Origin: Argopecten irradians
Lineage: Eukaryota; Mollusca; Bivalvia; Pectinida; Pectinidae
Direction of reading: 5' to 3'
Length of the DNA stretch: 64,000 nucleotides
Assembly: GCF_041381155.1 (NCBI RefSeq)
Contig: NC_091137.1
Coordinates: 24,907,351 to 24,971,350 of the forward strand
The notes under the pieces were generated by a model, which saw only the letters and a list, made by a program, of their open reading frames with translations, was not told where the DNA came from and ran no database searches. The translations under genes were made by a program, and so were the position numbers. How positions within the stretch are numbered: the first letter of the stretch is position 1; every line of letters begins with the position of its first letter. Below, in pieces: positions 2,800-62,300 of this stretch.

Positions 2800-6760
<3,961 letters not shown>

Positions 6761-8859: not shown

Positions 8860-11683
8860 CTGTGACTTTTTAATTTGTTTGATAATGCAAAATATGTTTT
8901 TCAGCTACATGTTGTTGAGTTTTGTTAAATTTACCATTATGATTAAAAAACATACCTAGATAGTTAAAATCATCTACCACTTCTACTTCTTTATGGTCGT
9001 AAAACCATTTTTCTTCTTGTCTTACAATACCACCATTTCTAAAAACTACAATTTTAGTTTTTTCTACATTAAGTGTAAGCTTCCATTCATTATTATACAA
9101 AAGCATTGCATCCAATATAGTTTGTAAAGCACGCGGACTTTCTGCAATAAGCACTATATCGTCCGCGTACATAGTATATAAACAGAGATATCATACCAAT
9201 TTCAACCGGTTGACAACTTTCTTTTATAAAACTCATTTCACAATCATTCAAAAACCGATTTTGTTATCAAAATATTCTGATGTATGGCCATTGTATTTCA
9301 TACATGATTTTACATTATCATATAGAGACTTAATAATTTTAAAAAAATTTTCCCTGAACTCCATATGTTATAAGTTTACACCAAAGTTTCCCTCTATCAA
9401 TAAGATCAAATGCCTTTTTATAATCAATGAAACAACAGCACAAACGTTTCTTTTTATTAAGAGTTCTATTAATTAGTGATTGAAGGACGAATATTGCATC
9501 TACTGTTGAGTGACCAGCTTTAAAACCAAATTGAGCATCAGTTATAACAGAATTTTCCTTATCCCACTTAATCAGCCTTCTGTTTAACACTGCGGTAAAT
9601 AGCTTTCCCATACAACGGACTAAAGCTATACCTCTATAATTATTGACATCATTTATATCACCTTTTTTATGTACTGGAACAATGGAGCCACATGACCACA
9701 CTTCTGGAAAGAACTCGGATTAAAAAATTCTACTAAAGAGTTTTGATATACAAGGTATCAAAATATCTTCACAATCTAATAATAATTCGTTTAAAATGAG
9801 ATCTTCACTGCAAACTTTTATCTCTTTTCAGATTACGAATTGCAAAATGTATCTCCTCTTCAGAAAATGGTTCATCTAATTCATTAAACATTGTTGAATC
9901 TATATCGTTATGCGACAACTCGTCACTAGTGTCATCTGTATTAATGTTATTACTAATATTACTAAAATAGTCCAAAAATTCATCCATACTAATATGTGGC
10001 TGGGATACATGATTTTTACGCTTTGAATAATATTTATAGAATTTTTTGGGGTTATTCTTTCTGAGAAACTCTACCATATCACCTTCTTGTCGTTTGTATT
10101 GACGATTAAGTCTATATTCCAACTTTTTGTAAGTTTCTTTTTTACTTATAAGAACCGCATGATTATCATGTGTCTTGTTAACATTAAAATTAAAGATGCT
10201 CCACCACTGAAAAATGGTATTTTTTCACTATCAAAAACAGGAGCAGACGATTAAGTATTTTTCTTAAGTTACAAAAGTTACTTACTTTACAGCGTTGCCA
10301 CCACTGAAAAGTTTGAGCTTTTAATTTGACTTCAAGTTAAACATATGAAAAATAATTAATTGCATCCCGAAAAAATTCCATGGCACTATATTCAATTTGG
10401 AATGAAGTACTGATTGCGCATGCACCAAAGACGAAATAATTATTTTATATTATTTTTTGTGTTCATTAGACACATATATACACGATTAAACACCAATTAT
10501 TGTTCAAATGCTGAATATCATTTATGCTCTGTCGGCGATGGAGCATCTTTAAATACTGCACGTTTATAATCATTATATTTATTTTTACATTCATCAGTAA
10601 ACCATGGTTTGTCCTCTTTATCACCTTTTACTGTTGAGGGTATTGATTCTTATTACTTGTATTTTTAACATTACAGTTTCGTAAAACAACATGATTTATA
10701 TTACCACAAAATTTGGTTACACATTCATCTATTTTTTCTTGAGAATTTAACGACATATCACATATATTAAGAAGGTCATGAACTATTGCTTGAAGGTCAT
10801 TGCATATTCTATCTACATTGTCTTTGTTCCATCTCACAGTTTTTGTTGTACTACCACTACATAAGACATTATTGCGGTCATCAATTATATTAGTGTTACA
10901 CATATTGAAGGAAAAACACAACGGTGAGTGGTCAGACATAGTATTGAACTCGCCCGTGCCAAATTTTAAAACATTTGAAATATAATCACAATCAACTAAT
11001 AGATAATCAATGAGGCTCATTCCGTTGTTATTACAAAAGGTATAATTTCCATTTTCATCGCCTGTATGACGACCATTAACTATTCGCATACTTTTAGATT
11101 TACACAATGTAAGTAATTTTCTACCATATGTATTTACATATTTATCCATATTACTACGAGGACAATCAGTTGAATCGTTATTATAAAACATATCATCAAA
11201 CAATTCATCATCAAGCCCATTATCTACAACATAATCTGGCCTAGTTCCTGTTCGAGCATTTAAAAGTCACCGGCTACATACACATTTCCATTTGTTTTGT
11301 AACGGCTTATTGACTCCTCTAGACTCATATATATATCACAACTATTATAAAAGATACTATTTTCCGGAGGAAAATAACAAAAACACAAAAAATGACTTAT
11401 TACCAGAGTAAATCTTTACCCAAAATATACAATCAACAATATTTTCAACTATAGAAAACATATTTTTTAAATGGTCTTTATGCAGAAGCACAACTCCACC
11501 CCATTTTCCAGTAGGTCTGGGGAAAACATATGTACAAAATCCATTCAACTCAACTACGTCTTTACTCGTTATCCAACATTCAGTCAGACATATGACATCA
11601 TATTTATGTAATATTTCTAAGAAATCTCCGTCGGCGAGTTTACTAATGAGCCCTTTACCAATGTTCCATGACAGGACCGACAA
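8860..11683 (-). pseudogene. LINE ORF2 remnant: endonuclease plus reverse transcriptase
   Basis: The endonuclease begins MSVLSWNIGKGLISKLADGD, with DVICLTECWI (catalytic Glu region), VYVAGDF before about 11270, and MSDHSPLCFSF (the SDH motif). The reverse transcriptase has KKGDINDVNNYRGIALV, DAQFGFKAGHSTVDAIF, CFIDYKKAFDLIDR and the catalytic MYADDIVLI, followed by WKLTLNVEKTKIVVF. The frame shifts within the GDF-NARTG loop near 11260 and again between 9339 and 9172, and there is a stop-rich join near 9720-9800. The MITE at 10190-10552 splits the linker; outside it the frame reads WFTDECKN...KRAVFN and then VNKTHDNHAVLISKKETYKK. This is a dead copy. Confidence 0.88.
10190..10552. mobile_element. 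TTAA-flanked MITE nested in the LINE
   Basis: Bounded by TTAA on both sides with terminal inverted repeats AAAGATGCTCCACC and GATGGAGCATCTTT. TTAA target sites are used by the piggyBac and Kolobok superfamilies; which one is unresolved. About 363 bp and non-coding. It interrupts the LINE linker, so it is younger than the LINE insertion. Confidence 0.8.
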
Positions 11684-18038: not shown

Positions 18039-21000
18039 CTAAGAAGAACTCTCCACCACTGGAGGTTCAGAACTAGATTCAGTTGGGGCGTCCTTTAAGG
18101 TGTCTGACGGATCCTTAGATTCTGGTGTGCTATTTGTGGCGTCTCCACCATTTGTCATAGACTCACTCACGTCTTCTGTATCTGAAAGCAGAAAAAGTTA
18201 AAATCATCTATAAATATTTCAAGACATATTCAAGGAATATTTAAAGTCAATATGATAAAAGTTCATCAATCATTTTTGTTAAAGCGTTATCAACTTGTAC
18301 AATACACTGGTCATATAGTTAACATACAACCTCTACATTATCTAATTCAAGGTCTAACTATGGTCAGGTTCTGGAAGTAAGTGTTGTACAATACACTGGT
18401 CATATAGTTAACATACAACCTCTACATTATCTAATTCAAGGTCTAACTATGGCCAGGTTCTGGAAGTAAGTGTTGTACAATACACTGGTCATATAGTTAA
18501 CATACAACCTCTACATTATCTAATTCAAGGTCTAACTATGGCCAGGTTCTGGAAGTAAGTGTTGTACAATACACTGGTCATATAGTTAACATACAACCTC
18601 TACATTATCTAATTCAAGGTCTAACTATGGCCAGGTTCTGGAAGTAAGTGTTGTACAATACACTGGTCATATAGTTAACATACAACCTCTACATTATCTA
18701 ATTCAAGGTCTAACTATGGCCAGGTTCTGGAAGTAAGTGTTGTACAATACACTGGTCATATAGTTAACATACAACCTCTACATTATCTAATTCAAGGTCT
18801 AACTATGGTCAGGTTCTGGAAGTAAGTGTTGTACAATACACTGGTCATATAGTTAACATACAACCTCTACATTATCTAATTCAAGGTCTAACTATGGCCA
18901 GGTTCTGGAAGTAAGTGTTGTACAATACACTGGTCATATAGTTAACATACAACCTCTACATTATCTAATTCAAGGTCTAACTATGGCCAGGTTCTGGAAG
19001 TAAGTGTTGTACAATACACTGGTCATATAGTTAACATACAACCTCTACATTATCTAATTCAAGGTCTAACTATGGTCAGGTTCTGAGAGCAAGTGTTGTA
19101 CAATACACTGGTCATATAGTTAACATACAACCTCTACATTATCTAATTCAAGGTCTAACTATGGTCAGGTTCTGAGAGCAAGTGTTGTACAATACACTGG
19201 TCATATAGTTAACATACAACCTCTACATTATCTAATTCAAGGTCTAACTATGGCCAGGTTCTGAAGCAAGTGTTGTACAATACACTGGTGTTAACATACA
19301 ACCTCTACATTATCTAATTCAAGGTCTAACTATGGCCAGGTTCTGGAAGTAAGTGTTGTACAATACACTGGTCATATTGTTAACATACAACCTCTACATT
19401 ATCTAATTCAAGGTCTTACTATGGCCAGGTTCTGGAAGTAAGTGTTGTACAATACACTGGTCATATAGTTAACATACAACCTCTACATTATCTAATTCAA
19501 GGTCTAACTATGGCCAGGTTCTGGAAGTAAGTGTTGTACAATACACTATCATATAGTTAACTACAACCTCTACATTATCTAATTCAAGGTCTTTCTATGG
19601 TTAGGTTCTGGAAGTAAGTGTTGTACAATACACTGGTCATATAGTTAACATACAACCTCTACATTATCTAATTCAGGTCTAACTATGGTCAGGTTCTGGA
19701 AGTAAGTGTTGTACAATACACTAGTCATATAGTTAACATACAACCTCTACATTATCTAATTCAAGGTCTAACTATGGTCAGGTTCTGGAAGTAAGTGTTG
19801 TACAATACACTGGTCATATAGTTAACATACAACCTCTACATTATCTAATTCAAGGTCTAACTATGGTCAGGTTCTGGAAGTAAGTGTTGTACAATACACT
19901 GGTCATATAGTTAACATACAACCTCTACATTATCTTATTCAGGTCTAACTATGGCCAGGTTCTGGAAGTAAGTGTTGTACAATACACTGGTCATATAGTT
20001 AACATACAACCTCTACATTGTCTAATTCAAGGTCTTACTATGGCCAGGTTCTGGAAGTAAGTGTTGTACAATACACTGGTCATATAGTTAACATACAACC
20101 TCTACATTGTCTAATTCAAGGTCTAACTATGGCCAGGTTCTGGAAGTAAGTGTTGTACAATACACTGGTCATATAGTTAACATATAACTCTACATTATCT
20201 AATTCAAGGTCTAACTATGGCCAGGTTCTGGAAGTAAGTGTTGTACAATACACTGGTCATATAGTTAACATACAACCTCTACATTATCTAATTCAAGGTC
20301 TAACTATGGCCAGGTTCTGGAAGTAAGTGTTGTACAATACACTGGTCATATAGTTAACATACAACCTCTACATTATCTAATTCAAGGTCTAACTATGGCC
20401 AGGTTCTGGAAGTAAGTGTTGTACAATACACTGGTCATATAGTTAACATACAACCTCTACATTATCTAATTCAAGAAGGTCTAACTATGGCCAGGTTCTG
20501 GAAGTAAGTGTTGTACAATACACTGGTCATATAGTTAACATACAACCTCTACATTATCTAATTCAAGGTCTAACTATGGTCAGGTTCTGGAAGTAAGTGT
20601 TGTACAATACACTGGTCATATAGTTAACATACAACCTCTACATTATCTTATTCAGGTCTAACTATGGCCAGGTTCTGGAAGTAAGTGTTGTACAATACAC
20701 TGGTCATATAGTTAACATACAACCTCTACATTATCTAATTCAAGGTCTAACTATGGCCAGGTTCTGGAAGTAAGTGTTGTACAATACACTGGTCATATAG
20801 TTAACATACAACCTCTACATTATCTAATTCAAGGTCTAACTATGGTCAGGTTCTGAGAGTAAGTGTTGTACAATACACTGGTCATATAGTTAACATACAA
20901 CCTCTACATTATCTAATTCAAGGTCTAACTATGGTCAGGTTCTGGAAGTAAGTGTTGTACAATACACTGGTCATATAGTTAACATACAACCTCTACATTA

Positions 21001-24000
21001 TCTAATTCAAGGTCTAACTATGGCCAGGTTCTGGAAGCAAGTGTTGTACAATACACTGGTCATATAGTTAACATACAACCTCTACATTATCTTATTCAAG
21101 GTCTAACTATGGTCAGGTTCTGAGAGCAAGTGTTGTACAATACACTGGTCATATTGTTAACATACAACCTCTACATTATCTAATTCAAGGTCTTAGTATG
21201 GCCAGGTTCTGAGAGCAAGTGTTGTACAATACACTGGTCATATAGTTAACATACAACCTCTACATTATCTTATTCAAGGTCTAACTATGGTCAGGTTCTG
21301 AGAGCAAGTGTTGTACAATACACTGGTCATATTGTTAACATACAACCTCTACATTATCTAATTCAAGGTCTTAGTATGGCCAGGTTCTGAGAGCAAGTGT
21401 TGTACAATACACTGGTCATATAGTTAACATACAACCTCTACATTATCTAATTCAAGGTCTAACTATGGCCAGGTTCTGGAAGTAAGTGTTGTACAATACA
21501 CTGGTCATATTGTTAACATACAACCTCTACATTATCTAATTCAAGGTCTTAGTATGGCCAGGTTCTGAGAGCAAGTGTTGTACAATACACTGGTCATATA
21601 GTTAACATACAACCTCTACATTATCTAATTCAAGGTCTAACTATGGCCAGGTTCTGGAAGTAAGTGTTGTACAATACACTGGTCATATAGTTAACATACA
21701 ACCTCTACATTATCTTATTCAAGGTCTAACTATGGTCAGGTTCTGAGAGCAAGTGTTGTACAATACACTGGTCATATTGTTAACATACAACCTCTACATT
21801 ATCTAATTCAAGGTAGGTCTTACTATGGCCAGGTTCTGAGAGCAAGTGTTGTACAATACACTGGTCATATAGTTAACATACAACCTCTACATTATCTAAT
21901 TCTAGGTCTAACTATGGCCAGGTTCTGGAAGTAAGTGTTGTACAATACACTGGTCATATTGTTAACATACAACCTCTACATTATCTAATTCAAGGTCTTA
22001 CTATGGTCAGGTTCTGGAAGTAAGTGTTGTACAATACACTGGTCATATAGTTAACATACAACCTCTACATTATCTAATTCAGGTCTAACTATGGCCAGGT
22101 TCTGGAAGTAAGTGTTGTACAATACACTAATCATATAGTTAACTTACAACCTCTACATTATCTAATTCAAGGTCTTTCTATGGTTAGGTTCTGGAAGTAA
22201 GTGTTGTACAATACACTGGTCATATAGTTAACATACAACCTCTACATTATCTAATTCAGGTCTAACTATGGTCAGGTTCTGGAAGTAAGTGTTGTACAAT
22301 ACACTAGTCATATAGTTAACATACAACCTCTACATTATCTAATTCAAGGTCTAACTATGGTCAGGTTCTGGAAGTAAGTGTTGTACAATACACTGGTCAT
22401 ATAGTTAACATACAACCTCTACATTATCTAATTCAGGTCTAACTATGGTCAGGTTCTGGAAGTAAGTGTTGTACAATACACTGGTCATATAGTTAACATA
22501 CAACCTCTACATTATCTTATTCAGGTCTAACTATGGCCAGGTTCTGGAAGTAAGTGTTGTACAATACACTGGTCATATAGTTAACATACAACCTCTACAT
22601 TATCTAATTCAAGGTCTTACTATGGCCAGGTTCTGGAAGTAAGTGTTGTACAATACACTGGTCATATAGTTAACATACAACCTCTACATTATCTAATTCA
22701 AGGTCTAACTATGGCCAGGTTCTGGAAGTAAGTGTTGTACAATACACTGGTCATATAGTTAACATATAACTTCTACATTATCTAATTCAAGGTCTAACTA
22801 TGGTCAGGTTCTGGAAGTAAGTGTTGTACAATTCACTGATCATATAGTTAACATACAACCTCTACATTATCTAATTCAGGTCTAACTATGGTCAGGTTCT
22901 GGAAGTAAGTGTTGCACAATACACTGGTCATATAGTTAACATACAACCTCTACATTATCTAATTCAAGTTCTAACTATGGCCAGGTTCTGGAAGTAAGTG
23001 TTGTACAATACACTGGTCATATAGTTAACATACAACCTCTACATTATCTAATTCAAGGTCTAACTATGTTCAAGTTCTGGAAGTAAGTGTTGTACAATAC
23101 ACTGGTCATATAGTTAACATACAACCTCTACATTATCTAATTCAAGGTCTAACTATGGTCAGGTTCTGGAAGTAAGTGTTGTACAATACACTGGTCATAT
23201 AGTTAACATACAACCTCTACATTATCTAACTCAAGGTCTAACTATGGCCAGGTTCTGGAAGTAAGTGTTGTACAATACACTGGTCATATAGTTAACATAC
23301 AACCTCTACATTATCTAATTCAAGGTCTAACTATGGCCAGGTTCTGAGAGCAAGTGTTTTACAATACACTGGCCATATAGTTAACATACAACCTCTACAT
23401 TATCTTATTCAGGTCTAACTATGGCCAGGTTCTGGAAGCAAGTGTTGCAGTAACTTGATCTCCTACAACATAATACATTATGTAGTTGTTTAATGTTGTT
23501 GAAAGGACCCAAATTCAATATCAAATTTATCATTTAAAAAAAAATTCTTTGAACTAATCCTTACCACCATTTTGAATTTTAGCCTCTGCTAATTTCTCCT
23601 GAAGTTCTTGTTCTTCTTTTTCTTTTTTCTCTTTTTCCTCTTCCTCCTTTTTTAACTTTTGCATGACTACAAATTCCTCTGCAATCACAGTTTTATGGCC
23701 TTGGTCATTTAGCAGTGAATGAAGTACATGTGCACAATAAATATTTTATATATTACTTCTTATGCTGCAGTCAAAGATACTATTATTGGGTCACAGTGAC
23801 CTAATTTTTCAAAGAATACACTGTGTTACCTAGAAGGTTACAATATTTTCTGGATTATATGCTGCACTTAAATGTAAGATAGAAAGGTTTTTTTTTACGT
23901 TTTACTTTTTTTTCCCCAATTTTTACTGCACCTTTTGATCTTTGATTTTTACAAGAATGAAAAAGATATACTATATATTTTGTCCAAGGAACATGAAAAC

Positions 24001-27000
24001 TGAATCTTGTTAACAATATCTGCCTTCAACAAACACTAACCTGCCATTTTACTGCACATCTTTTTATGTGTGGGCCAGTGTAACTTCTGACAGCGACCGT
24101 CACAATACCTCACCTGAAAAACGAAAAGATAATGACACATACTCATATATATATATATAGTAAAGTGTTTTTGTAAAGTAGATGGACAGATTTTTTTGCA
24201 AACTCATACAAATAGAAGAATAGTACATATTTTGTACTTGATTATTGATATCATGGTTTATGTTAATCATTGAAAACATTTTCTGATGTTGTTGAGAACT
24301 TTTTTGTCATACACTCTAATAAAACATACAATGTGTGAATATGGATGCTTATATATGATGGTTCAGATCCATGAAACCACCAACATACCATAGCGGTAAA
24401 TGTCGCATGAAATGTAAGACATTTTGAAGGAACCGCCATAGTCAATACCATGTTTCAAACTTTCGGGTACTATTGGAAAACCGAGTTGCATCACGTGACC
24501 GACATCGACGATACCCTTATAGATCGGAACCTCCCGAGCCGTATCACGTGGTCAATATTTGCAATACCCATACAGATCGGTATAGATCGGAACAGTTCAG
24601 ATACTTCCGAGCTATTTTAAAAGTGTACACGTTAAAAATCAATATTTTAAGTTAATTGTTCAATAACTTTGCGAACATGAACTTTACAAAATTTGGTAAA
24701 TTTCAAAAGTTTAAAACTTATAGAGGCAGAGAATATAGGTAGAACACTTTAAATACTTTTTCTATGCCAAAAATACAACAAGTCACAGACCATACAACTA
24801 TTTTTATTAATCAACTGGATTGTAAATAAAACAGTTCCAGAGAAAATCTATTAAAGTTTTGAGAGGAAATCTTACCATTTTACAAGCAGAACACTTCTTT
24901 TCTGCCCCCATTTCCCCACATGTTCCACAATTATCTTCAGTGTCAAATGTCATACGGTATCCATTGATTCCTTGTGACAGTACAGATAGACCAGTTGGGT
25001 TATCTCCCTGTCAACAATAAAAAAATCATATTTAGGTTATCTTGAAGGTCCTATTAAGGATGTACACCTCTGAGAAGTCAAAATTTTCTTGTATTAAACT
25101 TTTTTTCTTGTATAGATTTTTGGAAATAGGAGTTCATACCATACAAGAAAATGGAAGAAAAACATATGTCGGTGCGCTTGTTTTTGAGCCATTGGCACTC
25201 AAAGATACAAGGTTGACAAAATCTAAGATTTTTTGGGATTTTTGTCGTTTTGACCATATACACAAGAGTTTAAAGCCATAATTTCCTAATGAGATGTTTG
25301 ATATGTATGGAAGTTTGAAGAATTTATTTTCCTGTAGTCTTCTTTAAAAAGATACACGTTTTGTTTAATAAGACTCATATTTTTTCTCAGAATAACAACA
25401 TATGCTACCCCTACCCCTTCATTTTGAGCTACAAAATACACCATTTTCAGCCATTTTTGCCAAATTTAACCCTTTATAGAAACAGTTGTGGTATTAAACT
25501 TTTGTTAATATTTTACATATCAACAGGGAATGGGTTGTTCTTTCTAAACTATGCAGAAAAATGGGGGGTCAGTTTGCTTACTTTTTTGCCTCATTTGAAT
25601 ATGTGTTATTTTTCAGTATTTTAGAATAAAAAATAAAAGTGCTCAAATTACCATTAAATGTAAAAATAAAGTGACAAAAGCGTATCACTTCACGCAATAA
25701 TGCTCAAAATTTTAATAACCACGAACCTAGTAAAGATTAACAGCAAAAATTAGCTCGATACAGCTAAAAATGCTAGTGCAGTGATGATTTAAGTAAAAAC
25801 AATTTCAGTAAAAAATGGTTAAACTATGGCTCTACTCAATGAGGAAAAAGACACAATTTCAAAATGGCCGCCAAATGGGCCATTTCTTAAATTCCCTGTA
25901 TAAAAAAAATCTACTGAAAATAGAAATGCAATTTTTTGACAAAATTTGCATCTGGCAACTTGCTACAGATATTGATAAAATATATTTGAAAATCTCATAA
26001 CAACATTGATCTTTGTCGAAACGAGACTTCAACGGGACTGAAACCTCAGAAGAATACATCCTTAAAAGCTTTGAGAAATTCACAGCCTACAGTCTGACGA
26101 CGAGGTAGGTATCAAACTGACGACTGACAATACACCATTACATACCATTAAACTTCATAGTAAACCATTACATACCATTATACTTCATAGTACACAATTA
26201 CATACCATTATACTTCATAGTATGTATGTACTACAATAACAGAAGTGTCATCTGTTTTACAGAATCATTATGGAATGTAATACACAGTAAATCAAAATCT
26301 CATAATTAAGGCTAATTAATTATTAGTTTCTCAGGCCAATTTTTTTAAAATCTAATGAGGTAGGCAGGTGTTTTTTTATATATTTTTTATTCCCTACCAA
26401 AACAGCGAGGCAGGTACCTTTTTTTTTTTTTTTTTTTTACAAATGGCATGTTTAAAATAAAGATCTATTTGTAAGTTATATAATATGTTAGTAATAAAAG
26501 TGACCCCCATAGTCAGTTTGATTCTTTTTAAAAGCCCATCCATCTACTATCTACAGTGGACACTATATACAGTATACTAGTATATGTTCCTTCATGAAGT
26601 AGTTCAAAGCAAAACACATTTAATGAAAAACACCTTCAAAAAATCTTTTGAATATGGCAGTTTTTGTTATGGCTTCATTAACTTAACAAGAGATCCCAGA
26701 GGGATCTTGGTGCCCACCAAAGAATGATCTATGTCTGACAATGACAGAGGGATCTTTTCCCCTGCTTTTCAAACTTTTTCAAACACACTACATATAAAAT
26801 TTGAGACAGATCCGCTACAGTAACTTTCTAAGAAATAGTGGTAACAACTTCAACTCAATGAAATCTAAGATGGCGGCCAAGAGGTTGGCCATCTTATTTA
26901 CCGATCAGTCCCGAAAGCATTGATGCATCAGTCCTAAAAAGGTACTATGCACAACTAGGTTATCAAGGGGAAACCTATGCATGGAATTTGAGTAAAGATC

Positions 27001-30000: not shown

Positions 30001-33000
30001 GCACATGAGGAACGATGACAACATAACACAATGGCTGTTGTTCATTCTAACCCTTTGGCAAAAAAACCTGGTAACCTAAATATCTGTATTAAATCATCAC
30101 AGTTTAAATGATCAAATATGTGTACGTTACCTTGACTGGATTTAAATTAGACTGGTTAATCAGCTTCAGCATAGCCACTTCCAGGTCTGCAGAAAGTTTG
30201 GGCTCTTTTTCAAGTCCTATAATATAAACATCAACAGCCTTAGGTAAGTTGAAATTACTGTGGATAATTCAGTGTTACAAATTGTTTATTTAATAACACC
30301 TGGCTCATAACAAATAGTAGCAATGATCTATTTCATTATCAGAATCAACCATACATACATAACTTCAAGATGAAAATCAATTTTGGTATGGTGTAATGCA
30401 AATCATTATCACGACAGAAAAATGTATAAATATCTTAGTGTGCATAATTCTAAGAACTTTGAAATTTCTTTAACAGTAAGTGATAGTAAGGAACTAACAA
30501 ACAATGTTAGATGAAATGGCCTGACCTTGTAGATATAAAAAGATTTTTTGGCTATTAGCAGTTAGCTTTTGGAAATAACAATAATTTCCTAATAAGGTGG
30601 AGAGCTTCCAAATTTTCAAAGAAGTAAAGGACTACTAACTTCACTAATCAAGGATTACGATCTGCATGCTCAACTCTATAGGTGAAGAGGAGTAGACGTG
30701 TAGTTGTATTACTGTGTGTACAGATTATAAACCTTGGCTAGGATAAATAGGGGACTACTTACCTTGGGTGTACGGTGTAGTGTATTCCTGTGTGTACAGA
30801 TTATAAACCTTGGCTAGGGTAAAGAGGGGTCTACTTACCCTGAGGTACCGTGTAGTGTTTTAGATTCTCCCGACCAAAGAAAGAATTAATCACGGACACA
30901 CACTGGTGCTGACCTGTACAAACATGATAAAATCATCGTTAACAACATGTGTGATGTGTACAAATAACAACATGAATAAAAACACTTCAACCACTGTAAA
31001 TTGATAGTTACAGGTACATCAGAAATAAATGATTGTGATTTCAAAATTCAAGGCAATAAACTAGTGTTTCCCAAAGGAAAAAAAAGGGCATGGTGCTGGA
31101 TTTTGAAAAGGGCACCTTGACCGCGATAAATAACCATCAGAGGGGCACAAAGGTTATATCGACAACTTCCAATACAAGGAAAATTCTTTAAAACTGTCTT
31201 GTTGTTTATTTAATTCTGGTTCAACTTAATATCATTTAAATGCTTTAAACTCTCTGAGTTGCTAAGTAATATCAGGACATTATTTAATTATTCTGAGTGA
31301 AAAAAATGATTTTGAAAATTGTAATCTGCAGATCATATGATCATGACTATAATTGATTCACAAGAAAGATCTAAATTTCATTTATATTAATTAAAAGAAT
31401 GCGAAAATTCAAAATGTATTCCTTTATTTCAATCCAATTACCTTTATTTTAATATATATCTTTATTTAAATATTAAAAATACTGTATTGATTTGAATAAG
31501 ATAACATGTTTCATAATAATGGACAATTAATTAAAATAATGTTCTAAATTTTCAAGCACTAAATTAAGAAAATGCAGATAAGTGTTAGAGTAGTATGCAA
31601 AATATTTCAAATTAATCTGATAGAGAAAAAAGTTGATTTCTTTTTAATTTGATTTATTTTAATTACTTTGCTATTAATAATTTTATTATTATTAAAATAT
31701 CTTTTCTAAAAATAAATTCACACTGAAATTCTAAAAAAATAATACCGTTTTCATTTTTAAAAACGTGAATATTAGTAAAATCCTGAAATTCAATACCTCC
31801 GGATCTACTATTACAATACACCCAAAATGGCGGCCATTACGATTACAAATCTTGTGACATCTATCCGATATAGATAGGCCTATTAAACATTAAAAACGTG
31901 AGTAAATCATTTACAGTTGTAAGCAGTATTTGTTTTTGAAGTAATGCTCACTAACTGTAGTCATAAAACTTATTGAAAGGCCAGCTGATTGTTTTCTAGG
32001 CTGCCGATCGGCTGCTTGACTTCAGCTTACGTAATACACAGACCTGAAAGTGACACCACAAGCCAAGGTGGAAATAGCCCAAGGCTGCTAATTAGGGCCA
32101 CTGGGGTGTTGGTCAGGGGGTCAGGGAGTGGTCACACTTCTTTTGTTTACTTCATTATCAAGCCACTACCTGGTATTTTGGTAGTTTAGTAGAAGTGTAC
32201 TGGGGACAAACAGGGCACGGCGTTAGGTCATAGGGGCATGGCGTCAGGTAAAAAGGGCACGGCGCGGCGCCATGCTAATCGGGGCTGTGGGAAACACTAT
32301 AAACACTGCTGTTTATAAGTCACCACTTATAATAAAAACACTTTACAATGTATTTCTTTTAAAGAAAGCAGTCAAAGAGCTTAAAGATAAAGTTGTGTTA
32401 TGATTTAACATTGTCTTGATGAATTGGATCAAATAATGATGCATTATTTAACTAGATTAAGCACTTTGCAGGGGTAGAAATAAGGACTGATTTTAGTTGG
32501 ACCAAAGGGCTTGCCCAAAAGAAAATATACTGGACCTTCAGTGATTTAAGTGGCCTTCATATTTGGGACATGGAGCAAAGTGACAGGTCCGCCTGCCATA
32601 GGTGGGGCCGACAGGGGTTCAGGCAACACTACCCAACCATTTGAGCCCTGTTTTACTCATAGTTATCTCCCTTACCTACAAATCCTGTCATCTGAGACAC
32701 TGTTTTCCTCAGTTATCTCCCTTACCTACAAACCCTGTCATCTGAGACACTGTTTTACTCAGTTTTCTCCCTTACCTACAAACCCTGTCATCTGAGACAC
32801 TGTTTTACTCAGTTATCTCCCTTACCTACAAACCCTGTCATCTGAGACACTGTTTTACTCAGACACTGTTCACTCAGAGTTACCCCCCTTACCTACAAAT
32901 CCTGTCATCTGAGACACTGTTTTACTCAGTTATCTCCCTTACCTACAAACCCTGTCATCTGAGACACTGTTTTACTCAGTTATCTCCCTTACCTACAAAC

Positions 33001-36000
33001 CCTGTCATCTGAGACACTGTTTTATTCAGTTATCTCCCTTACCTACAAACCTTGTCATCTGAGACACTGTTTTACTCAGTTATCTCCCTTACCTACAAAC
33101 CCTGTCATCTGAGACACTGTTTTACTCAGTTATCTCCCTTACCTACAAACCCTGTCATCTGAGACACTGTTTAACTCAGTTATCTCCCTTACCTACAAAC
33201 CCTGTCATCTGAGACACTGTTTTACTCAGTTATCTCCCTTACCTACAAACCCTGTCATCTGAGACACTGTTTTACTCAGTTATCTCCCTTACCTACAAAC
33301 CCTGTCATCTGAGACACTGTTTTACTCAGTTATCTCCCTTACCTACAAACCCTGTCATCTGAGACACTGTTTTTCTCAGAGTTAACCCCCCCCTTTACGG
33401 TACCTACAAACCCTGTCATCTGAGACATTGTTTTACTCGGAGTTACCCCCCTTACCTACAAACCCTGTCATCTGAGACACTGTTTTACTCAGTTATCTCC
33501 CTTACCTACAAACCCTGTCATCTGAGACACTGTTTTACTCAGTTATCTCCCTTACCTACAAACCCTGTCATCTGAGACACTGTTTTACTCAGAGTTACCC
33601 CCCCCCCTTTACGGTACCTACAAACCCTGTCATCTGGGACGCTGTTTTACTCAGTTATCTCCCTTACCTACAAACCCTGTCATCTGAGACACTGTTTTAC
33701 TCAGTTATCACCCTTACCTACAAACCCTGTCATCTGAGACACTGTTTTACTCAGTTATCTCCCTTACCTACAAACCCTGTCATCTGAGACACTGTTTTAC
33801 TCAGAGTTAACCCCCCCCCCCCCCTTACGGTACCTACAAACCCTGTCATCTGAGACGCTGTTTTACTCAGAGTTACCCATCCCCCTTACCTACAAACCCT
33901 GTCATCTGAGACACTGTTTTACTCAGTTATCTCCCTTACCTACAAACCCTGTCATCTGAGACACTGTTTTACTCAGTTATCTCCCTTACCTACAAACCCT
34001 GTCATCTGAGACACTGTTTTACTCAGAGTTATCTCCCTTATCTACAAATCCTGTCATCTGAGACACTGTTTTCCTCAGTTATCTCCCTTACCTACAAACC
34101 CTGTCATCTGAGACACTGTTTTACTCAGTTATCTCCCTTACCTACAAACCCTGTCATCTGAGACACTGTTTTACTCAGTTATCTCCCTTACCTACAAACC
34201 CTGTCATCTGAGACACTGTTTTACTCAGTTATCTCCCTTACCTACAAACCCTGTCATCTGAGACACTGTTTTACTCAGAGTTACCCCCCTTACCTACAAA
34301 TCCTGTCATCTGAGACTCTGTTTTACTCAGAGTTATCCCCCTTACCTACAAATCCTGCCATCTGAGACGCTGTTCTACCAACAGAGTTTGTATGGTTCAC
34401 ATTAGCTCCGGCTTGAAGCATCAGGCGAGTTGTTTCTGAATTGCCTAATCAAATCACATAAAAACTTTTAAATATGTGTTAAAGTCAATGCATCATTCCA
34501 AATTAGAAATGTACCTACTGCTTCCAATAGTGTTGTCTTAAAAACACTCCTTTCGAACACATTCAATTATATGGTTGTTTTCAGGAGTAAAAGCCTAAAA
34601 ATGGTTCTGAGTAATGAACAAAACAATCAAATGAATTTATTTTAAATGTATTCTGACATTTGAACTTTAATATTTAGAAAAATCCTATTAAAGAATAAAG
34701 ATTGATACTACATCGTATTACAATACTATCAAAATAAATCGCTCAATATCAATACTATTCCAATAGTGTTTCTACAATAATAATAGTATAGCAATAGTAA
34801 ATCTGTCCCAATATTCAGCCCTAACCAAGCCTAATACCTGAGAGGGCAGCAAACATTAGAGCTGTGTAGCCATTCTCATGATAGTTAGAGTTGACATTGG
34901 CTCCATGAGCCAGAAGTAATTGACAAAGTGCAGTCTTTCCTCGGAACGCAGCATGCTGGAGTGGGGTCATCCCAGTCTGCCAAAGTAAGGTTTGTTATTA
35001 TTTAATTCAGCTGTTCATATTTCATCTTATGAATAAAGTTCAGTCAGGAAAATAATGAGTATTCTTAATACTTTGCATCCAACAGAACAAAGATATGCAA
35101 TACAGCCAAATTATTTATTTCATAATGAAATTCAGTGCACCAGCCACATCCTTGATTTCATAATGATATTCAGAGCATCAGCTGATCTTTTATTTGTTTT
35201 CAAAAATATATGTCTCTTAGAAAGCTAACTGGTGAAAAATACTTGTATCATAGTCAAAAACACACCTATGTACACTCCCTCAATTCATGTAACATTTTGG
35301 GAGTAATTAACATACTCAAGATAAACGTTACTTACATCATCCAAAAAGTCAACATCCTTCACTGTGTTTTCCTTCAGCAGGAGTGTCACTTCATCTGCTT
35401 TACCTGAAATTTAATTAGAAAAAGATGTAAGATTTTAACATCTTTACTTGACACAGCATGCGAATATCAGTAGAAACAGGAGCAAAATGACGTCTGATGA
35501 AAAAACGGCTGACTAGTCGACTCTCATATTATGGGAGTAGGGCCAGAGTATATAGTAAATTTGGGAATATCTATGAATAATTGAATTTCATATGTTGCAC
35601 CAATTTCTATTGGTTAGATCTGTGAGGTTATTTTTCCATTGACTGAAAGAATTGTACGTCACATATTATGACGTCATAAATAAAAAAAGTTTCCGCGGGG
35701 GTATTTTAAAAGCGGCACAGTCATTGGCCAAACTGAATTATTGGATAAGATATCAATGCACAACTCAATTTGTTTTACTGTAAAACTTTTAAAGTAAGTA
35801 AAATTACGGCAATTTATGCCTAATAAGTACCTGATTGAGATATCTGAATTAAATTATAAGCATTATCCTCAATATCTTTTCGTGTCTATGAAAAAGAATG
35901 TCCGTCCGTTTTTTGTCTATGACTTTGTCTATAACCCCAAAAGATATTGAGATTAACGTTAACATTTAAAGATTGTGTAGAAGAACATGGAAAATACACA

Positions 36001-56899: not shown

Positions 56900-57860
56900 A
56901 AGGAAAATATTTCCTGTTGGCAAATGTTCTGGCAACTCCGAGACGGGAATGAACAAATTGTTCTTGAAGCAGATCTAGAGACAGCGGTTCTGTGAACACC
57001 TAGCAAGAGGAAGCCTAATCGAAATTGGTGCATGTGACATTCTAACGGAAGTAGGGTTCAATGCAAAATACGGTAACTGGAAATATCAATGATGATGCTA
57101 CTCAAGTATTTATGTACATCACATGATTTGAAATCAAGAAAATAAAAGAAAATTGTGATTCACGCGACAGCGAAACCTTGACAATGGACGAAACGTTGAA
57201 CCTGAAACCTTGAGAAATATAATTAAAACGAGAATCAACTAGCAAGTAACGGCCAAATAATCAAGGACAATCTATAAATGTGCTCGTAATTCATAAGAAT
57301 AGAAAGCAAACTTCAGCACAATTGCTCAAATATATTAATGCAATACCTGGCCAAAGACAATTTCACTTTAGTTCAAACCTCTTCAGAGATGTTCATTTCT
57401 AGTTAATAATAATTCTGTTTGAAAGAAAAAACGCTTTTACAATAGAAACAACTTGGTCTCATTGTACAAAGCTTCACGCTCTTCGGTAATTGCTATGGTT
57501 CTAATTTTTATACGGACGTTAAAATGAAAGAATAGTTTCTATGATTTTTCTAGAATCGCGAAGCATTTGTTTTGCATGAGTGTTGAATTGACCAGAAATA
57601 GATAAATATATATTATAATTGTCTTCTACTTCTCAATTTAATGTCTGGACTTTGAAAATTACAGAACTTTCGAAATATGCTTATGTGTTGCATGTACGTT
57701 TGTATATCAATAACCAATACATTGTATATGAATAAAAGACTGTTTAAACTAAAAATACAGAAATAAATGGGAGTAAAATAGAAATAATCCCGACACATTT
57801 ATACAACATGGAGGATCAAGTTAAGGTGCAACACACCAACTAATTCTCCAGTTTGGTGCA
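56900..57860. other. Intergenic stretch, no gene seen
   Basis: A/T-rich sequence with no domain or repeat recognised. Confidence 0.5.
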
Positions 57861-58498
57861 AAGAATTATAAAAGGCAATCCATAAATGTCTCCACAAAGA
57901 ATTATATAAGGCAATCCATAAATGTCTCCACAAAGAATCATAAAAGGCAATCCATAAATGTCTCCACAAAGAATTATATAAGGCAATCCATAAATGTCTC
58001 CACAAAGAATTATAAAAGGCAATCCATAAATGTCTCCACAAAGAATTATAAAAGGCAATCCATAAATGTCTCCACAAAGAATCATAAAAGGCAATCCATA
58101 AATGTCTCCACAAAGAATTATAAAAGGCAATCCATAAATGTCTCCACAAAGAATTATAAAAGGCAATCCATAAATGTCTCCACAAAGAATTATAAAAGGC
58201 AATCCATAAATGTCTCCACAAAGAATTATAAAAGGCAATCCATAAATGTCTCCACAAAGAATCATAAAAGGCAATCCATAAATGTCTCCACAAAGAATCA
58301 TAAAAGGCAATCCATAAATGTCTCCACAAAGAATTATAAAAGGCAATCCATAAATGTCTCCACAAAGAATTATAAAAGGCAATCCATAAATGTCTCCACA
58401 AAGAATTATAAAAGGCAATCCATAAATGTCCAAAATGTCTCCACAAAGAATTATAAAAGGCAATCCATAAATGTCCAAAATGTCTCCACAAAGAATTA
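57861..58498. repeat. 36-bp minisatellite, about 17 units
   Basis: Unit CCACAAAGAATTATAAAAGG then CAATCCATAAATGTCT. Variants have ATCATAAAAGG or ATTATATAAGG; the last two units carry an extra CAAAATGTC. Because 36 is divisible by three, two minus-strand frames stay open (repeats of SLWRHLWIAFYN and ILCGDIYGLPFI). No start region, domain or splice context supports translation. Confidence 0.95.
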
Positions 58499-58941
58499 CT
58501 GTACCTAATGTTCTGTTCAGCCAAAGTATTGCACACTGAGATCTAGATTAAATAAAAAAAAATAATAAAGGTTTAATAAACAACACACAAACCTTTAATA
58601 GCCATTAATGTACCAAAGTATTTTCATAAAAACACAATTGAAATCCAGTTTCCAGAATTTTAAGTTCAAGTGAGCAGCTATTGCAGGACTACTTTTCAGT
58701 AAGTATGGAGGCCCAAATAGAGCAAAGTTAATACAATTTATGTGTAAGAAACTGAAAACTGATAAGTATTCTTACTTACAAGTTGAACTCAAAATTACAA
58801 TTATCATAAATGTAAAGACCCAGAGGACCAGTATTGTTCACTTATGAAATGTAATCAACCATTTGTACAGTTTTAAGTTTATCACCCCAATTGTTTTTGC
58901 TATTTTATGATTGATATTTTAGATACCGGGTATATATACCT

Positions 58942-59699: not shown

Positions 59700-62300
59700 A
59701 ACAAAACAAGAGGCCCAGATGAACTGTATCGCTCATTTGGTTTGTTATCTTTCTTAGTCTTACTAAGTTGATACTAAACGCAGGCCTTCATGCCTCTGTT
59801 TCCAAATACCTAATGTACATAAGTGTACATTTTGTATTTCTATTGTCGTTTCCAGATCGTATGGTGTTATTATTGTTTGTGTTGGTGATGTAGATCCTGC
59901 CTTTGTGTTGCCAGTGTTTATCAAGCCTGTTTTCAAAGGTGTTGAGCGCTGGTGACTGTACAACTTCTTCTGGTAACGAGTTCCAAGCATTTACAACCCT
60001 TTGTGGAAAAAAGAGTATTTTCTAATGTCCAGTTTTGATCTTGCCTTTCCCAAACAGTATGAATTCCCTCTTGTTCTTTATTTACAATGTACTTTAACCA
60101 GACCAGCAGAACCTTGTTTGTCTTCGAACGCTCGTACAATCTTCAAGCCCTCGATCATGACTCCCCGATGATGGCAACTTCAGCTTCTTCATTCTTTCTT
60201 CGTATGCAGTATCTTTCATCCCTGGTAACAACTTCGTTGCTCCACAATGACTTCCAAATCCTTTTCTTCCTCTTCTAATTTCAAACAAGTCTCCCTTCTT
60301 ATTCCATCTGATTCCTTATACAACTGAAGATTTGGAGCTGTTGAATTATTTCCTATCCTCATGTTGTGACACTTATTAGGATGGAACTTAAGCAGCCATG
60401 TATCCGACCATTTTTGGAGATTATCCATATCTTTCTGCATATCAACGTTTTTCCTGGAGTCACTGTACAGCTTTGTGTCATCCGCAAACATTAAAGCAAT
60501 TGAATCCACTAAATCTGGAAGGTCATTTATGTACGAAACAAATAATGTTGGACTGAGTACGCTACCCTGTGGTATGCCTCTTGTCACTGATTTCCATTTG
60601 GATGTTTGTCCATTTACAGGCACCTGCTGTTCCTTTTCTGTTGAAAATGTCCGTATCCATTCTGTAATCTGTTCCGATATCCCATATGTTTCCAGTTTCC
60701 CTAAGAGTCTTCTATGAGGCACCGTATCGAATGCCTTCATGAAATCCATGTAGACCACGTCTACACTACCCCTTCATCCATTATTTCTGTCCATTGATCG
60801 ACAACTTTCAAGAGTTGAAGACTGTCGATCTGCCATTAACAAAACCGTATTGCTGTGGACTCAATAGATAGTTATTCAATGTATGTAACATCATTCTTGA
60901 CCTAATTATCTTTTCCATCATCTTGCATACCACACTGGTCAGGCTCACATGTCTATAGTTACAAGCATATTGTTTGTCCCCCTTCTTAACGATAGCAGTG
61001 ATCCTTACTTCTTTCCAAACCTTGGGAACCTTTGCTTGACTTAGGAATTGTTTAAAAATAAATTTCAGTGGTTCTGTTACAGAATTTTTCAATGTCTGTT
61101 AGCAACCTTGGGTGTATGTTGTCTTGAAAAAAAGTCCACTAACGCCTCTGCTTTTTCTTCATCGCTTCTTGTAACATGTTTTACCACACCATTATCTTTC
61201 ACATGCAGTTCTGCTTTCCCCGTCCTAGTTTTGGTTTTCGAATTTGCATACCTCCAAAATTTCTTCGGATTTATTTTCAATTCCTCCGCAATATTTTATT
61301 CAACCCTCTTCTTTGCATTTCTAACCAAATTTTTCACTTTATTTCTTACTACTTTGGCATATTTTCTGTACTTGTTTTCATCCTTTGTTTCCTTGAATCT
61401 TTTCCAACCTCTATGCTTTCTTTGTATTGCTTTCAAAATACTTCCATATAGTGGTTGTTTGTACTGCTTCTTAGTTGATTTCCTCACTGGTATATGATTG
61501 TTTGTTGCATTCAATATTTTCTCTACAAATCTATTATAATTTTCATCTAGATCTCCGTTTAATAATAAGTCCCAGTTTATTTTGAGTTCTTCTCTGATTT
61601 TTTCATAATTCCCTCGATTATACAGCATTTTCTTATTCGTGTGATTTTGTTTATCACTGGTTCACACATAATTGAATTAAACACATCCGTGATCACTTTT
61701 GCCGGTAACATTTAATTTTTCCACCATATTTTCTTCATTTGTAAATATTAGGTCCAGCACACTGATTCACTCTTATCCTTGATGGCTCATGAACATGTTG
61801 AAATAAATAATCATCACGGACTATCTCCACAATTTCGTATTCATTCTTGTTTTTGTAATCAGTTGCGTTCAAGTTCCAATTAATGTTTTTGAAGTTGAAA
61901 TCTCCCTTAATTAATAGATGTGAGTAGTTTGTTTCACCTGCTTCTGTTATTAATTAAAATATTTCCTATTGTTCCTTTCAATACAACTTAGGCTCCTGTA
62001 AACACAACCAATGAGCAGTTTATTCCCTCTGCTGAGGTTCATAGAAACCCATATTTGTTCTTTGAAAACTGTTGGTAACATCTATTGCCTTTAATTCTGA
62101 TTTTATATAAAGCGCTGTTCCTCTTATCCCTTCATCATTTTCTGCGTTATTTATAAACATGTCATATCCATATATGTGCAGCTCTGCAGTGGTTGGAGCA
62201 TATCTACTGGTTTTTGACAAAACTTCATTGATTCCTATTATCATTGGATCATCACTTAAAATCCTAGCTTTCGATTCATGCTAATAAATGTTCTGGATAC
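59700..62300 (-). mobile_element. 5'-truncated CR1-like LINE, decayed
   Basis: In order on the minus strand: endonuclease piece at 62244-62020 (AELHIYGYDMF, GTALYIKSELKA); endonuclease-RT linker at 61628-61089 (KINPKKFWRYANSKTKTRTG); reverse transcriptase at 61092-60216 (NYRHVSLTSVVCKMMEKIIR, SPQQYGFVNGRST, YMDFMKAFDTVPHRRLLGKL, GIPQGSVLSPTLF, ALMFADDTKLYSDS); and a C-terminal tail at 59990-59763. The 3' end carries GAGCGATACAGTTCATCTGG then GCCTCTTGTTTTG. The N-terminal part of the endonuclease is missing and the frame is broken several times. The RT motif order and the 3' end suggest the CR1/jockey group. Confidence 0.88.

Follow-up and report, generated by a model that had tools for sequence, protein, structure and literature searches.

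A minisatellite starting in exon 4 of ANKMY2 in Argopecten irradians repeats the splice donor of the exon and has a dispersed motif as its intronic half

The window that is analysed here, i.e. a stretch of 64,000 nucleotides from one assembly of the Argopecten irradians genome (contig NC_091137.1, positions 24,907,351 to 24,971,350), carries the gene ANKMY2 on its minus strand, where a tblastn comparison with the human protein finds the exons in order from position 34985 to position 24045. Exon 4 of this gene runs into a tandem array that repeats the end of the exon, its 5' splice site (the donor) and the start of intron 4; the features of the locus are listed in Table 1. The assignment of exon 4 in the original prediction, an earlier reading of this DNA, is borne out by the ordered tblastn exons and by exon 5, which continues in phase (G|GTCAGCACCAG reads as GQHQ); the placement of the origin of the array in exon 4 stands as well, with the limits of the exon corrected to 34444-34346, i.e. 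99 nt.

Table 1. Features of the ANKMY2 locus, in positions of the window.
Feature	Position	Strand
ANKMY2 exon 4, 99 nt; its last ~33 nt supply the exonic half of the unit	34346..34444	-
True 5' splice site of intron 4, GTAAGG	34340..34345	-
In-frame TAA for any transcript that uses a copy donor	34323..34325	-
Intronic array, 32 more copies of the exon tail with its donor and the intron start; final junction 32676	32650..34345	-
Stretch with 23 exact copies of AAGGGAGATAACT	32661..34238	-
Dead copy donor ATAAGG (junction 34042)	34036..34041	-
Altered copy donor GTACCG, followed by a long G run (junction 33834)	33828..33833	-
Altered copy donor GTACCG (junction 33618)	33612..33617	-
Altered copy donor GTACCG (junction 33404)	33398..33403	-
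ANKMY2 exon 5	30839..30913	-
Exon 5 array: exon tail and donor GTAAGTAG, 2.2 copies of 76 bp, motif absent	30697..30862	-

Between the true exon end at 34346 and the last copy at 32676 we have counted 33 exon-intron junctions, i.e. 32 extra copies, which lowers the earlier figure of about 34 units and leaves the array itself in place. The 32 spacings between neighbouring junctions measure 50 bp in 23 cases, 52 bp in four and 56-67 bp in five. All 33 junctions are preceded by GTAG, while the donors of the 32 copies read GTAAGG (28 copies), GTACCG (three) or ATAAGG (one); the earlier statement that nearly every unit retains GTAG|GTAAGG is therefore correct for 28 copies, the other four having an altered donor. 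The G run is present in all three GTACCG copies, and these copies follow each other at a step of four units each time, which suggests that the variant has itself been multiplied. The tail of exon 4 matches the adjoining copy (copy 2) at 30 of 33 nt and the consensus of the 32 copies at 29 of 33 nt; five codons differ between the exon tail and the consensus, four of them with a change of amino acid, as would be expected of untranslated DNA.

The repetition is far above chance, with 31 occurrences of CAGATGACAGG against 0.01 expected and 23 of AGGGAGATAACT against 0.00 expected. When 151 bases of the array are searched against the genomic DNA, 16 matches are returned, every one of them within the exon 4 array, a result in which the absence of further matches is no proof of rarity. 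With 33 head-to-tail units, mostly of 50 bp, at a single locus, the array is a minisatellite, and its unit spans a real exon-intron boundary. The array is thus confirmed to be real and derived from the exon, in agreement with the original prediction of an exon-seeded array that multiplies a working donor: it begins in exon 4, and the donor sequence of the copies is that of the true site.

Read past the true donor, the frame of exon 4 continues as GKGDNSE and reaches TAA at 34325-34323, seven codons on; the predicted peptide is read directly, and the predicted truncation would come with the use of any downstream donor. Since the proximal exon and its donor are intact, the protein can still be made. 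The first donor would be used nearly exclusively, with some leakage into the stop seven codons on, and transcripts from the remaining donors would be expected to decay.

The unit has as its intronic half AAGGGAGATAACT(C), a motif of 13-14 bp that is dispersed in the genome. A myosin light chain query, identical to the scallop chain PDB 1b7t_Z over residues 2-157, matches three exons of this genome at 97, 94 and 94% identity, their ends overlapping, as would be expected of a scallop, and 16 chromosomes would suit Argopecten. In the 846-Mb genome, which has 16 chromosome-sized contigs (C16 measures 34.5 Mb, C17 1.07 Mb), the exact 14-mer occurs 3,755 times, against two occurrences of its reversed control, and the 13-mer with at most one mismatch has 33,017 sites, against 1,295 for the reversed sequence. 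The flanks are mostly unrelated in ten sampled places, two of which lie in one repeat family; at least three such families contain the motif, which also occurs in places that show no likeness of this kind. A motif of this type is probably common in molluscan sequences. No record of it has been found in the open-access papers searched (GTTATCTCCC with mollusc, GGGAGATAAC and GTTATCTCCCTT as search terms). A scan of viral contigs has returned one match per contig among the matches listed, which is the level of chance, and is not used here.

Genome-wide, 261 pairs of motif copies lie in the same direction at a distance of 33-63 bp, and a single, palindromic site has copies that face each other. 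The first 100 listed pairs fall into 36 loci by our own grouping; only one of 630 comparisons between their spacers exceeds the shuffled maximum, and so the units of these arrays are unrelated, i.e. 36 loci of unrelated arrays have one short core in common. Within 500 bp, the motif is in tandem at 10 of 82 motif loci (from the 100 exact sites that are listed first, on C1 at 0-22.3 Mb); the corresponding share of control 13-mer loci is 1.3% in the window minus the array and 2.0% in 20 sampled stretches, which had themselves been picked for containing the motif. The part of the motif as a core of minisatellites is likely to be an association, not a proven cause. The original prediction had taken the exon as the sole seed of the array, which is not supported, since the intronic half is a genome-scattered motif that forms the core of many other minisatellites; this objection is qualified by the presence of exon-end arrays without the motif.

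Arrays at exon edges have been sought in 60 rows of the program TRF (Tandem Repeats Finder), covering the window and 20 further stretches, where the exon 4 array fills two rows. A second array follows exon 5 of ANKMY2 itself (Table 1), its exonic part matching only with small gaps. An exon that encodes NIT and guanylate-cyclase domains (locus L039) has its last 34 nt repeated together with the donor and 14 bases of the intron, at a period that is mostly 48 bp: this array (5656-6616) has 18 junctions, including the true one, as counted by a fixed word, with GTAAGT at 17 of the 18 and the motif absent. Many of its copies are near-identical to the exon. In an SRCR exon (L032) an 11-nt tail and the donor are repeated in an array that is cut by the end of the stretch. 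Exon heads are affected as well: at L031:8166-8508 an exon head and its acceptor are repeated with a 51-bp period (the EF-hand hits being below the cut-off), while at L033:3847-4301 a mind-bomb exon adjoins a 44-bp array whose unit has the reversed motif beside the acceptor. The reversed motif forms there the pyrimidine-rich part before the acceptor, and the motif may thus act at donors in one orientation and at acceptors in the opposite one.

The three loci that have been selected for at least two copies of AGGTAAGGGAGATAACT are all exon ends, of an EGF exon (L048), of a helicase exon (L050) and of an exon without a Pfam hit (L049). Across the 59 sites where the motif follows AGGT, the exon tail clearly recurs downstream only at the first and the last of these, with 22 of 22 and 19 of 22 bases respectively, the remaining sites scoring at most 16, within the range of the controls. 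The helicase exon has been considered as a further clear case and rejected: its donor and motif are repeated, with a weakly similar tail. Of the 56 single AGGTAAGGGAGATAACT sites, 27 lie in two dispersed repeat families and 29 outside them (by simple sequence words). Pfam searches of ten open frames at such sites give only PARP (L189) above the cut-off, and the share of true donors among the single sites is hence uncertain. One of the 56 (L213) reads TTCGAACTGAG|GTAAGGGAGATAACT and then has one more copy, in a frame without a Pfam hit; this two-copy state may be an early stage of an array. At another locus (L187), the stop codon of a zinc-finger frame is immediately followed by the motif, which would lie in the 3' untranslated region, as judged by eye. 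Judged by this sample, exon-end arrays are not rare in this genome, and the array of exon 4, which had been called unusual, shares its anatomy with exon 5 of the same gene and with several other genes.

We consider it probable that the exon 4 array is a neutral intronic minisatellite, seeded at a splice donor that coincides with the dispersed motif. The intron would have started, by chance, with a copy of AAGGGAGATAACT(C); its first bases, AAGGG, give a working donor when GT stands before them, and the neighbouring exon tail would consequently be copied too. A tandem duplication across the junction of exon 4 and intron 4 would have begun the array, and slippage or unequal exchange would have enlarged it to 33 units. 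The copies would be passengers, with the proximal exon and donor remaining intact and the copied exon tails drifting; a transcript spliced at a downstream donor would gain the stop that follows GKGDNSE and would probably undergo nonsense-mediated decay. For ANKMY2, the array is probably harmless.

A stronger claim would be that AAGGGAGATAACT actively nucleates minisatellites in this genome, as their core: tandem growth would begin wherever the motif lands or arises, and its first bases, by completing a splice donor, would repeatedly convert exon ends into rows of 5' splice sites with the same sequence. This we advance only tentatively, as the less probable course of events. Several results weigh against the part of the motif in the probable account given above. 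The motif-free arrays of exon 5 and L039 show that the motif is not required. The ANKMY2 unit that adjoins the exon has the one-mismatch form AAGGGGGATAACTC, the exact form starting only at the third junction. The central motif copy lies inside a tandem array in 2 of 19 scored stretches, where TRF arrays cover 16% of the bases, and so, per base, the motif has no excess in arrays. Lastly, a 13-mer taken as control from a repeat family with the motif forms no direct pairs, but with just 276 copies it is a weak control for abundance.

The exon end itself could instead be the hot spot, with exon-intron junctions starting tandem duplications and the motif being incidental, which we regard as somewhat more doubtful still. 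The same motif-free arrays speak for it, and so does the pairing of donor-like 9-mers, which exceeds that of reversed controls (2,228 against 315, and 3,489 against 361); however, a few large arrays dominate the listed pairs, and the controls are not matched in composition. Scored with a generic donor weight matrix, 4 of the 60 array rows (three distinct arrays) reach a donor score of at least 10, against 2.1% of the controls, which is no clear excess, and arrays are also found at exon heads (L031 and L033).

The original prediction had suggested a regulatory device, in which the train of donors acts as a U1-binding array, a kinetic buffer or a switch that depends on copy number; some ANKMY2 transcripts would then take a truncated, decaying form. 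The retention of the donor hexamer in 28 of the 32 copies and the stop that comes at once after the donor would suit such a device, as would the predicted folding of the RNA of exon 4 and the first units, which is mildly more stable than that of shuffled sequences (z -1.96; 4 of 100 as stable). Being only mildly above the shuffles, this folding does not obviously hide the copy donors, nor does it single out the true donor; donor strength cannot tell the true donor and its copies apart either, their bases being identical. Against the device, the comparison of donor columns with exon-tail columns in the 32 copies gives no sign of selection on the copy donors: 1 of 192 donor cells is substituted, with an insertion in three copies, and 15 of 1,056 exon-tail cells are changed; the donor columns are not visibly better conserved, and the numbers are small. 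Moreover, damaged donors were amplified, and unrelated genes show the identical anatomy. A poison exon needs an acceptor; the unit offers a donor and a stop, but the 18 bases before AG in its consensus include only eight pyrimidines and so, by composition, no pyrimidine-rich acceptor. As far as composition and conservation indicate, a splicing switch is unlikely, and the proposed buffer, U1 array and poison exon find no support in units that are pyrimidine-poor before AG and whose damaged donors have persisted and spread.

Just as improbable, in our judgement, is that copies splice to copies through AG|GT, as in the Rogers model, whereby units would be excised and an identical donor rebuilt, making mis-splicing self-healing. 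The junctions would allow it, as the GTAG that precedes all 33 is followed by GT at 32 (the exon and 28 copies with GTAAGG, three with GTACCG; one has AT), and one report describes both the model and a case from fission yeast, in which a 24-bp AGGT unit is present several times (PMC4974935). Compared by sequence with Rogers-type intron gain, 31 of the 32 copies have AG|GT; however, no polypyrimidine tract precedes the AG, and the unit contains several earlier AGs. That the array is an artefact of assembly, as can happen with long repeats, has a negligible chance, given that the units differ from each other in ordered ways, that both edges of the array meet non-array sequence and that comparable arrays occur elsewhere in the genome.

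Three further features of the window are noted. An 89-bp tandem array of 58 copies occupies 18295-23447, past the last of the ANKMY2 matches on the 3' side; open frames that resemble, by eye, reverse-transcriptase pieces of retroelements lie at 9339-11266 and 60216-60773; and a 36-bp array of about 17 copies at 57799-58547 leaves three frames open over 227-247 amino acids, with no sign of coding.

Human minisatellites of the Jeffreys type have a short core sequence in common. The arrays described here resemble them in that unrelated arrays have one short core, and differ from them in the core itself. In human segmental duplications, minisatellites at exon-intron boundaries have been reported that can alter splicing (PMC2812944). 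Their tandem units can straddle the boundary as in ANKMY2; the human units are about 30 bp long, number about four on average and often alter the coding sequence or create introns, whereas the 32 copies described here are intronic and leave the exon intact. A published model of intron gain (PMC4974935) invokes the tandem duplication of AGGT segments; it is similar in having AG|GT in the unit and in multiplying the splice-site dinucleotides, and differs in that an existing exon-intron junction has been copied here, with no new intron shown. The anatomy of the ANKMY2 array belongs with these exon-boundary repeats and AGGT duplications. No description has been found, in the open-access papers searched, of a class whose trains of identical donors come with a dispersed core motif at the donor; repeats at exon-intron boundaries are already known, and the motif-cored, donor-multiplying class looks like a new form of these.

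The more interesting lead is the dispersed motif, together with the set of genes that have multiplied donors. If this picture is true, one genome has many genes where a single exon is followed by a row of 2 to 33 5' splice sites that are identical or nearly so, with or without the motif, and the choice of the spliceosome among equal donors would be addressable by ordinary RNA sequencing. It would also supply a concrete short core for testing how minisatellites start; and if the motif does nucleate tandem growth, these genes would form a natural series of experiments on the competition between equal donors.

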